Shown one piece after another: positions 5,018 to 7,422 of a DNA stretch of 64,000 nt. A program made the position numbers and the translations under genes. The stretch's first letter is position 1, and each line of letters starts with the position of its first letter. The DNA is from Leisingera daeponensis (GTDB lineage: Bacteria > Pseudomonadota > Alphaproteobacteria > Rhodobacterales > Rhodobacteraceae): contig NZ_JAHVJA010000001.1 of NCBI RefSeq assembly GCF_019801465.1, positions 496,001-560,000 of the forward strand, given 5' to 3'. The notes beneath the pieces are model-generated. The model worked only from the letters and a program-made list of their open reading frames with translations, searched no databases and was not told where the DNA came from.

Positions 5018-5683
5018 TTAGCCTTGGATCTTGTCCGCCCGCAGCGGGCAGGAAAGGTAGACGCCGAATTCCTGCCCTACATCGCAGCTGACGCGCGCAT
5101 GTACCTTGCCTTGACGGTCCAGGAAGCGCTGGCTGTCCTCCACCGGGAAGATGCCCTCGTGCCAGATATTCGGGTGGATATAGAGCCCCTTGGAGCCGTC
5201 ACACCAAAAGGCCACCACCTTCTCGGGCTTCAGATCATCCCCCGGCAGGGCTGCAGGAATGATGAATGGCTTGTTGTCCAGCGGATAAAACAGCTGTCCG
5301 CCATCGGGGTGGTAGTTCATGTGCCACAGCAGCACTTGGTCCCGCGGTGCGGTCTGCGTCTCCACTTGCGCCTTTTGCGGGTCTGTGGACCAGCCCAGCA
5401 CATAGTTGCCATTGACCGCTTCGTTCTCACCATAGAGCACGTCACCGCGCCAGTGGCCGCGGAAGATGCCCTCAACCCAGCCGGCTTCGTCACCTGTACC
5501 CTGATCAATCGGCCGCCAGCCCTGTGCGGGCCACTGCACGATCTCGATCTCGAAGTTTTCCGGATCATCCACCAGGCAGCCATAGCCCTTGACGCTTTCT
5601 TCGGTCGCACGGATCAGCGGAACCTCATGCCAGGGCAATGAGGGTTTTGTGCTGGCTTCAAAGATGTACTCCGGCGCGTTCAT
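5018..5683 (-). CDS. AllA/ureidoglycolate-lyase-like cupin, third gene of the tmp cluster
   Basis: A 221-residue protein resembling the ureidoglycolate lyase (AllA) cupin family, seen in HPDGGQLFYPLDNKPFIIP, the VVAFWCDGSKGLYIHPNIWH block and the EGIFP end. Its start overlaps the tmpB stop by four bases (ATGA at 5680-5683), so it is translated with tmpB. No ureide or purine genes are nearby, so a phosphonate-related or downstream role is more likely than allantoin metabolism. The actual reaction is not known to me. The longer frame to 5749 runs into tmpB and has no separate ribosome site. Confidence 0.78.
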   Translation of the reverse strand: MNAPEYIFEASTKPSLPWHEVPLIRATEESVKGYGCLVDDPENFEIEIVQWPAQGWRPIDQGTGDEAGWVEGIFRGHWRGDVLYGENEAVNGNYVLGWSTDPQKAQVETQTAPRDQVLLWHMNYHPDGGQLFYPLDNKPFIIPAALPGDDLKPEKVVAFWCDGSKGLYIHPNIWHEGIFPVEDSQRFLDRQGKVHARVSCDVGQEFGVYLSCPLRADKIQG

Positions 5684-6285
5684 AGTACCGCCCCTCCCGC
5701 CTTGAGGTGTTTGTCGACCATCCGCTGCACCATCGGCGCAAAGTGCCAATAGTCAGGTGTTTCCATGTCCGCACGCTTTCCGGCCTCGTCCAGATAGCGT
5801 ACCGCGATGATCTGCTTGAGGTTCGGGTTCCTTTCCATCTCGGCAACTTCCTCGGCGTTCATTGGGCCGCCTTGAAGGTTCAAAGAATGGATGGAAGCCT
5901 CTGACAACCGGTTGAAATATTCCGGTCTGGTGGCGCAGAGATAGCGTTTGGCCGCCACATGGTACCGCACGCAGTCGGTGATCACTGAAGGAAAGAACTG
6001 CTCCAATACTTCGGCGCCGGCTTCCTCGTGAAAGCGGTCCTCGGTGTCGTCCATGGAGAAAGTGCCGAACTCGCTGGTGAAATGGCCGATATCGTGGAGC
6101 AGCGCCCCCACAATGATCTCTTCCGGCTGGCCGTTCGCCTCGGCGATGGTGGCGCCCTGCAGCATGTGTTCGGTCATTGTGACAGGCTCGCCCAAATACT
6201 CCTCGTCGCCGCGCCGGTCGAAGATATCACCGATGAAGGCGACAATGTTGTCCTGGGTCAGCTTGCTGAAATCCGGCTTGCTCAT
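5680..6285 (-). CDS. tmpB: HD-domain mixed-valent diiron oxygenase TmpB
   Basis: A 201-residue PhnZ-like HD oxygenase. Candidate metal ligands are His40, His64-Asp65 (LLHDIGHF), His86, His109 and Asp166 (RYLDEAGKR); Tyr30 and Glu29 lie in the substrate-gating EEYLGE loop. Family knowledge: TmpB oxidatively cleaves (R)-1-hydroxy-2-trimethylaminoethylphosphonate to glycine betaine and phosphate, as shown for the Leisingera caerulea enzyme. It lies three bases after tmpA and overlaps the allA-like gene. Databases often misname this family as phosphohydrolase. Confidence 0.9.
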   Translation of the reverse strand: MSKPDFSKLTQDNIVAFIGDIFDRRGDEEYLGEPVTMTEHMLQGATIAEANGQPEEIIVGALLHDIGHFTSEFGTFSMDDTEDRFHEEAGAEVLEQFFPSVITDCVRYHVAAKRYLCATRPEYFNRLSEASIHSLNLQGGPMNAEEVAEMERNPNLKQIIAVRYLDEAGKRADMETPDYWHFAPMVQRMVDKHLKAGGAVL

Positions 6286-6288
6286 GGT

Positions 6289-7422
6289 TCAGCCCTCCAG
6301 TTGGGCGTGCAGAACGTTCAGGGTCGAGAGCAGTCCGTCCTTGTCGGCGTAGCAGCCCTGCAGCCAGCGCGAGCCGGAACCGGAGTAGCCCAGGCGCGCG
6401 TGCATCACCCTCGTGTTATCGACGATGAAGCTCTCGCCCGGTTCAAGTTTGAAGGATACACCCATATCGGGGTCGTCGATGAACTCGCCCAGACGGCGGT
6501 AGGCGGCGTAATAGGATTCCATCTTGTCAAACGGGATGTCCACAAACGGGGCGGAGGAGCGGTTGTTGAACCGAATGCCGATCATCTCCCCGTCAGGGGA
6601 CAGTTCGATCATCGGGCGGCGCGAGCGCAGGTGCACACCGTCGGAGCCCTTGTATTCAAACCGGGCCGGGTAGCCGGCCAGCAGCGCAAAGCCTTCCGGG
6701 TTCTCGTCACGCAGACGTTCGGCTGCGCGGAATCCGTCCACCACAATGCTTTCGCCGCCCTCGGCGGAGTTCTCCAGGCAATAGAGAATCTGCAAGGAGG
6801 GCACCGGGTCGCGGTAGGGGTTGTCAGTGTGCGCCTGCAGTCCCAGACCGGTGTAAGCCAGGTTGGTCGGGTTCACCTCGGTGCGGACTTCAAAAAACTT
6901 GCCGTAGTTGGTCTCGCGGATAAAGCCGAACATTTCGGCGCAGTCGACCAGCGCGCCCTCTTTGACCGGGCCGTTCACCAGTTTGGCAAAGCCGAGCCGG
7001 GCAATGGCGTCCAGCCAGTCGCGTTTGGCCTTAGGGCTCGATGTCACCTTGTTCCAGTCGAAGGCCGGTGCGGGCTGACTGCTGCTCCAAGTGTCGATCC
7101 CCGGGGCCACGCGGCCGAATTGCGAAGCCTGTTCAATGTCATAGGCGTGATCCCTCAACCATGCACCGGGAAAGCTAACGGTTTTGCCATCCGGGGCGAA
7201 GGTTACGGTCAATGCATCATTTTCCACCGAAGCGGTGCTGATTTTGGTGTCGGCCGGTATGTCGCCGATGGTGATCAGCCGCTGGCCATTGCCGGGTGAG
7301 CGGGTCTCGGGATCCAGCGCATTGTCGCGCAACCAGATCGCATGGAAACGGCGCTTGCTGCCGTCGTCGAATGTCAGGGTCAGGAAACTGCCGGATGCGT
7401 CGGCGGATACGGAACGGGGCAT
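6289..7422 (-). CDS. tmpA: 2-trimethylaminoethylphosphonate dioxygenase TmpA
   Basis: A 377-residue Fe(II)/2-oxoglutarate oxygenase related to gamma-butyrobetaine hydroxylase: an N-terminal DUF971-like domain (about 8-95) then a TauD-type domain. Iron ligands are His198 and Asp200 (LQAHTDNPY) and His341 (VMHARLGY); the 2-oxoglutarate arginine is probably Arg352. The adjacent tmpB makes TmpA more likely than a carnitine hydroxylase; it hydroxylates the phosphonate for TmpB. The zinc-binding cysteines of the BBOX N-domain are missing: ALDPET occupies the place where BBOX has CPCSDC. Confidence 0.9.

Follow-up and report, generated by a model that had tools for sequence, protein, structure and literature searches.

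An AllA-like cupin gene overlapping tmpB in Leisingera daeponensis, a probable optional accessory to aminoethylphosphonate catabolism

The tmpA–tmpB genes of Leisingera caerulea have been reviewed as a two-gene operon (PMC10574752). PhnW-type pathways, which use 2-aminoethylphosphonate (AEP), end in acetaldehyde or acetate, not in glycine betaine (PMC10590968), and related phosphonates are brought into AEP catabolism by the optional enzymes PbfA, PbfB–D and PbfF (PMC12366243, PMC10590968; Peracchi and colleagues). PbfF is a racemase for S-1-hydroxy-2-aminoethylphosphonate (S-HAEP), with phosphoglycerate, glycerate and lactate dehydrogenases as its nearest characterised relatives (PMC12366243). 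Two cupin families are also relevant here, i.e. ureidoglycolate lyase (AllA), which is nickel-dependent in E. coli (PMC3793230), and the AllA-related DUF4867 (SftX/SqvD), which is carried in clusters for sulfoglycolysis, a pathway whose key steps all have an assigned enzyme, and for which no activity has been found so far (PMC11968277). In this study we describe a 64-kb stretch of Leisingera daeponensis DNA (contig NZ_JAHVJA010000001.1, positions 496,001–560,000; hereafter the window, to which all unprefixed coordinates refer), in which tmpA and tmpB are accompanied by a third gene of the same operon, hereafter denoted X, coding for a 221-residue cupin.

In our reading X probably serves aminoethylphosphonate catabolism as an optional accessory enzyme, a metal-dependent cupin of AllA fold that has departed from purine catabolism; what the analysis set out below establishes is its predicted fold, its clade, its gene context, its co-occurrence with phosphonate routes and the fact that it is optional. 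The genes lie on the minus strand in the order tmpA–tmpB–X (Table 1). Both tmpA and tmpB had been named in an initial annotation of the locus made from the letters of the sequence, and both encoded proteins exceed their curated cut-offs. The same annotation had reported an ATGA overlap between tmpB and X; the overlap is indeed present and, amongst the best 80 of 534 relatives (to which all figures for named relatives refer), recurs as an exact 4-bp overlap in 50 of the 53 directly linked tmpB/X pairs, a few of them with GTG or TTG starts. This recurrence argues that the overlap is not due to chance. That X is a real coding sequence is evident from its comparison with the relative at locus L103, where nucleotide differences number 24, 20 and 102 at the three codon positions.

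Within 5 kb of X, TmpB is encoded at 54 and TmpA at 49 of the 80 best named relatives, and at one locus (L143) the order is X–tmpA–tmpB. Four genomes (L109, L111, L126 and L148) have a tmpB–X pair and no TmpA at E ≤ 1e-60, one of them sharing coordinates with G184, which is listed as 100% complete; because such pairs occur without TmpA, they point to the hydroxyphosphonate step. In an order-level sample of 292 genomes, X was present in 20 (18 intact, 2 broken) and TmpB above cut-off in 62, with TmpB in all 20 X genomes compared to 42 of the 272 genomes without X. The X and TmpB genes adjoin in 16 of the 20 and lie apart in four. Conversely, 42 of the 62 TmpB genomes have no X, and at the equivalent locus of a sibling from the same genus (G181) tmpA–tmpB adjoin sufS with X absent; X is optional for the TmpA/TmpB pathway. 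The two broken copies lack an inner part (G150; L086:9604-9957) or contain stop codons (G251; L087:6585-7240), and both genomes encode TmpB above cut-off elsewhere. A survey of neighbourhoods, as suggested in the initial annotation, hence ties X to tmpB within the order, yet X is not specific to TmpA/TmpB.

This is most evident in a second order, that of genome G834, which comprises streamlined, AT-rich genomes (HIMB59/AEGEAN-169 is our guess as to its name) and in which X was present in 86 of the 150 genomes sampled. At all 14 loci fetched from this order, which were picked to spread over genera, and at L201, X lies directly behind phnW on the same strand, with a spacing of -4 to +11 bases as judged from first start codons. 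At L201, PhnW, PhnA and phosphonoacetaldehyde dehydrogenase are above cut-off and a PhnZ-like protein is just below, whilst at L244 PhnX is above cut-off; of 20 X genomes tested from this order, 18 matched the phosphonate HD-oxygenase family TIGR03276, at 200–207 bits and in every case below the cut-off of 214.6. At one further locus (L124), X is located beside the AEP transporter genes phnS2 and PhnU2, both above cut-off. Lone copies of X are faced by a divergent LysR-type regulator gene at 5 of 14 loci from the class sample and at 4 of 26 named loci without nearby tmpA/tmpB; in all seven regulators tested the top family was TIGR03339, the AEP-catabolism regulator (245–269 bits, below the cut-off of 341), with the next family at 150 bits or less. 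As a control, no phosphonate gene was found within 5 kb of the midpoint in any of 20 arbitrary regions of X-bearing genomes.

Two other genes recur in the streamlined phosphonate clusters. A small DSP/PTP-type phosphatase-like gene (PF22784 at L201, without an NCBIfam name) is located beside the PhnZ-like oxygenase gene at L201:5047-5571, with relatives at L245, L251, L252, L254, L255 and L256. A kinase gene whose product resembles both GntI, the guanitoxin N-oxide kinase, and thiamine kinase (a relation derived from the L244 copy alone and below both cut-offs) precedes phnW–X at L244:4795-5667 and L246:7830-8699, and may possibly catalyse an aminophosphonate-modifying step.

The co-occurrence of X with phosphonate routes extends to whole genomes. 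At class level X was found in 15 of 270 genomes, and a TmpB/PhnZ-type HD oxygenase in 13 of these 15 versus 43 of the 255 without X (Fisher 3e-8, uncorrected for kinship). A set of 46 X genomes was then assembled from 30 of the 31 named genomes without a tmpA–tmpB–X cluster, the 15 from the class sample and one from a phylum sample; 40 of them have PhnW (two matches, in G663 and G899, being partial, below cut-off and at contig ends), 35 have PhnA, 39 give a TmpB/PhnZ-type match and 27 have TmpA above cut-off. In each of the six that lack PhnW, TmpA and TmpB are above cut-off and PhnA is missing; each of the seven without an HD-oxygenase match has both PhnW and PhnA, and none of the 46 lacks both routes (PhnW; TmpA with TmpB). 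For comparison, 43 class genomes have an HD oxygenase but no X; amongst the 34 of these that were examined, PhnW was found in eight and PhnA in seven. Because every one of the 46 X genomes has PhnW or TmpA/TmpB, X accompanies the use of aminoethylphosphonates in general, whichever of the two routes is taken. The proposal that X feeds phosphonoacetaldehyde only is weakened by the six genomes with TmpA/TmpB but neither PhnW nor PhnA (PhnX was not searched for genome-wide).

The likeness of X to AllA, as put forward in the initial annotation, holds in part. PF04115 is the only Pfam family to match X at E ≤ 0.01, with 47.1 bits against a gathering score of 23 and over residues 122–188 only; there is no match to DUF4867, for which Pfam also contains a model. 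Eight NCBIfam ureidoglycolate lyase models match X, none above its cut-off (44.6 bits versus 230 for the highest). A separate, full AllA (C5:55330-55800, 193 bits) is encoded in the same genome and adjoins two genes whose products, judged by us from sequence alone, look like an allantoinase and a permease. A structure model of X built with 50 close relatives (mean predicted local distance difference test score (pLDDT) 89, predicted template-modelling score (pTM) 0.87) retrieved just seven chains from a PDB set with Foldseek at E ≤ 0.001, five from AllA entries and two of DUF4867. AllA is the nearest fold (best E 4e-10, TM-score 0.46–0.54 on the query, root mean square deviation 7.6–9.4 Å, identity 14–19%), followed by DUF4867 (9gyz, 9gyy; E 2e-4, TM-score only about 0.4, identity 8%).

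Alignment of 24 AllA and 16 X proteins places H74, Q79, W123 and H124 of AllA at H125, Q130, W174 and H175 of X, respectively, the conservation of H74 and Q79 in AllA being by construction, as the AllA rows were chosen by a motif that contains them. E72 and R73 lie outside this motif; E72, which is present in all 24 AllA rows, is replaced by N123, and R73 (96% of rows) by Y124, in each case in all 16 X proteins. By analogy with the 2His-2Glu site of DUF4867 (PMC11968277), and from general cupin motifs, E72, H74, Q79 and H124 are the presumed metal ligands of AllA, and X would then bind metal via N123, H125, Q130 and H175. In a tree of 73 proteins, obtained by a short search and with a very long branch between the two groups, the 64 X proteins are separated from the nine AllA proteins at 100% SH-aLRT support. 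X is AllA-like only in part and is not an ordinary AllA; it forms its own clade and is apparently a member of an undescribed protein family.

Nor does X keep the company of purine genes. Six purine queries were used (the AllA, the allantoinase-like PuuE and the xanthine-type permease of the organism itself, E. coli AllA, part of E. coli AllB, and Gcl); none of these matched within the window at the set bit threshold, which agrees with the absence of purine-catabolic neighbours claimed initially. A match within 5 kb of X was obtained at one of 108 loci (L199), where Gcl matched a gene resembling that of acetolactate synthase, itself part of an ilv-like cluster (the ilv labels are ours), such that no true allantoin-pathway gene was found for the six queries within 5 kb of X at the 108 loci, with allantoicase and adenine deaminase not queried. 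The regular occurrence of X beside allantoin genes, which would have spoken against a phosphonate role, was therefore not observed. At L209 and L210 the purine queries retrieved their own sequences, and each of the two AllA proteins retrieved the other. At L126 an adenine deaminase gene is located approximately 0.9 kb behind X; it is purine-related, although outside the allantoin branch.

With respect to mechanism, we infer that X is an enzyme, and likewise its substrate class and reaction. X would work beside either core route, TmpA/TmpB for the trimethylated compound or PhnW for AEP, and would most likely convert a related natural phosphonate, for instance a 1-hydroxylated or a conjugated aminoethylphosphonate, into a substrate for one of them. 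AllA acts on an α-hydroxy acid, ureidoglycolate, the HO–C–N unit of which collapses to a carbonyl; by analogy, X may cleave or rearrange the hydroxyl-bearing carbon next to the phosphonate. Since AllA cleaves an α-hydroxy acid and both S- and R-HAEP are α-hydroxyphosphonates (PMC12366243), our best guess at the substrate is such a 1-hydroxylated or conjugated compound. Amongst the ideas offered in the initial annotation, that of a related aminophosphonate fits best, whilst a TmpA/TmpB side product and metal loading fit poorly.

The latter two ideas would make X a helper specific to TmpA/TmpB, either loading metal into the mixed-valent diiron TmpB or clearing a side product of the two enzymes. 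The tight, conserved 4-bp coupling to tmpB and the tmpB–X pairs that persist without TmpA favour such a role; we nevertheless regard it as unlikely, given that seven of the 46 X genomes have no TmpB/PhnZ-type match, that X stands behind phnW at all 14 loci fetched from a different lineage, that 42 of 62 TmpB genomes manage without X, and that certain lone copies of X come with a phn-type LysR gene of their own. More plausible, although still clearly behind an accessory role in the broader sense, is that X is a 1-hydroxyphosphonate lyase or isomerase acting on (S)- or (R)-1-hydroxy-2-(trimethyl)aminoethylphosphonate, comparable to AllA acting on ureidoglycolate. The four TmpA-less tmpB–X genomes, the TmpB/PhnZ-type oxygenase in 39 of 46 X genomes and the retention of the AllA positions at H125, Q130 and H175 are consistent with this, and the existence of PbfF as an S-HAEP racemase indicates that such substrates matter (PMC12366243); the seven X genomes without such an oxygenase, and the Asn in X where AllA has Glu at the putative metal site, argue against it. 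A specific and rather speculative form, which we hold to be improbable, is that X, as an AllA-type metallo-cupin, reversibly cleaves 1-hydroxyphosphonates at the hydroxyl-bearing carbon, to give an aldehyde and phosphite or an exchange of isomers. If so, cells with TmpB or PhnW could further use, and even make, such compounds, and a lyase-type C–P step would be added to phosphonate metabolism. Phosphite release via a PtxD-type dehydrogenase was considered and found no support, the gene behind X at L149, L153 and L173 being GhrA-like.

It is very improbable that X is simply a ureidoglycolate lyase located in the operon by happenstance; PF04115 scores above its gathering threshold, and both the closest relative of solved structure and the closest fold are those of AllA, but the NCBIfam score is far from its cut-off, the X clade is separate, the genome also encodes a full AllA whose gene adjoins one for an allantoinase-like protein, no searched allantoin-pathway gene is near the 108 X loci, and the invariant E72 and near-invariant R73 are replaced. 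A product-side role, on glycine betaine or on a small downstream α-keto or α-hydroxy acid, also has little likelihood: a dimethylglycine-dehydrogenase-like gene adjoining X (L084, L086 and L134) and the GhrA-like gene behind X (L149, L153 and L173) are compatible with it, yet X is also coupled to phnW, whose pathways do not yield glycine betaine (PMC10590968). Demethylation of glycine betaine was rejected as a common theme, since it occurs directly beside X in that one lineage only (L119 being the same locus as L084); at L111, MttB-like and dimethylglycine-dehydrogenase-like genes lie further along. These latter labels are ours, no equivalog cut-off having been reached. The GhrA-like 2-hydroxyacid dehydrogenase genes lie directly behind X at L149:10664-11599, L153:2407-3342 and L173:5871-6806, and touch X in L153. 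Amongst solved structures the L153 protein is closest to GhrA and further 2-hydroxyacid dehydrogenases, and its 29 matches at E ≤ 1e-20 include no protein named as a phosphite dehydrogenase; the L149 and L173 proteins were placed solely by clustering with the L153 copy. PbfF is at most a possible identity for this gene.

Several observations weigh against X as an accessory of aminoethylphosphonate catabolism. The co-occurrence counts lack phylogenetic independence, and the comparison set for PhnW is limited to genomes with an HD oxygenase. In the evenly drawn class sample (14 loci, excluding that of L. daeponensis), a structural phosphonate gene lies within 5 kb of X at one locus, five loci have the LysR only and eight have nothing recognisable, whilst phosphonate-type neighbours were found at just 5 of the 26 named loci without nearby tmpA/tmpB. 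The GhrA-like neighbours hint at another or a wider metabolism, as does the dimethylglycine-dehydrogenase-like gene of one lineage, and the single annotated Paraburkholderia relative, recorded as a hypothetical protein, is surrounded by unrelated genes. In light of these few phosphonate neighbours, the neighbours from other metabolism and the Paraburkholderia surroundings, the argument for the unlinked copies is mostly one of co-occurrence. Finally, the substrate of X stays a guess, because PhnW and TmpB have no chemical step in common. A mobile origin was considered and rejected: relatives with 55–60% identity are present in plasmid records on seven Paraburkholderia replicons, and no match to X was found in phage records.

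The remaining features of the locus are collected in Table 1. The LysR-type gene divergent from tmpA has GcvA as its top NCBIfam family (175 bits, below the cut-off of 288) and is, from its position, the probable regulator of the operon; a tRNA-Arg (CCG) gene lies past it (8863–8939, minus strand). The shared terminator of the initial annotation is plausible: X and the convergent sufS are separated by a stem of 12–13 bp with folding z-scores of -6.1 (minus strand) and -7.1 (plus strand), which likely acts as a bidirectional terminator for both genes. It was however unlisted by a consensus terminator scan, which returned two sites elsewhere against 2.8 expected by chance.

Table 1. Features of the tmpA–tmpB–X locus, given as positions in the window.
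Feature	Position	Strand	Remarks
X	5018–5683	-	221-aa AllA-like cupin, accessory phosphonate-catabolism family (probable)
tmpB, (R)-1-hydroxy-2-trimethylaminoethylphosphonate oxygenase	5680–6285	-	NF049941, 362 bits versus cut-off 300
tmpA, 2-trimethylaminoethylphosphonate dioxygenase	6289–7422	-	NF049936, 600 bits versus cut-off 400
ATGA, common to tmpB stop and X start	5680–5683	-	4-bp overlap
LysR-type regulator (GcvA-like), divergent from tmpA	7522–8394	+	PF00126/PF03466
Stem-loop stretch with A/T flanks between X and convergent sufS	4960–5012	.	Candidate bidirectional terminator

Phosphonates are an important pool of marine organic phosphorus, and censuses of the pathways involved depend on known genes. 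X, which is present in roseobacters as well as in 86 of 150 genomes of one streamlined order, would be a marker, so far overlooked, for the use of aminoethylphosphonates, and one open to misreading as a purine enzyme since PF04115 matches it. Across marine metagenomes, the Pfam domain of ureidoglycolate hydrolase was grouped apart from allantoicase (TC4 versus TC12), with no phosphonate-named domain listed in its own cluster (PMC3597751); this clustering backs neither reading, and X-type proteins may blur the domain count. The literature searched, whose scope did not include the original 2019 report on TmpA/TmpB, contains no recognised link of an AllA-like cupin to phosphonates, and the words ‘cupin’ and ‘ureidoglycolate’ are absent from the main texts of PMC12366243 and PMC10590968.

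When compared with the described systems, X shares with AllA (PF04115, EC 4.3.2.3) the cupin fold, for which AllA provides the nearest solved structures, and the positions of H125, Q130, W174 and H175, but differs in its longer N-terminal part, its separate clade, the E72-to-N123 and R73-to-Y124 replacements and its phosphonate rather than allantoin context. DUF4867, the second nearest fold, offers a useful parallel to X, being likewise an AllA-related cupin in a pathway for an organic acid that already has an enzyme for each step; it is found in sulfosugar clusters, and its metal site is of the 2His-2Glu type, with Asn and Gln at the presumed matching positions of X. Following AllA, with its carboxylate substrate, and DUF4867, in sulfonate pathways, X would be the third related cupin family in small-acid breakdown. 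With the TmpA/TmpB pathway X shares an operon whose tmpA and tmpB are above curated cut-offs, although that pathway is described with two genes and X is missing from 42 of 62 TmpB genomes of the order and from the G181 locus. In genomic-context logic X parallels the Pbf enzymes, since it is likewise recurrent and optional (with tmpAB, phnW, one phnS2–PhnU2 context and a phn-type LysR); the Pbf enzymes belong to other families (a transaminase-derived lyase, FAD amine oxidoreductases and an NAD racemase), and X, unlike them, couples to the oxidative TmpA/TmpB route too.

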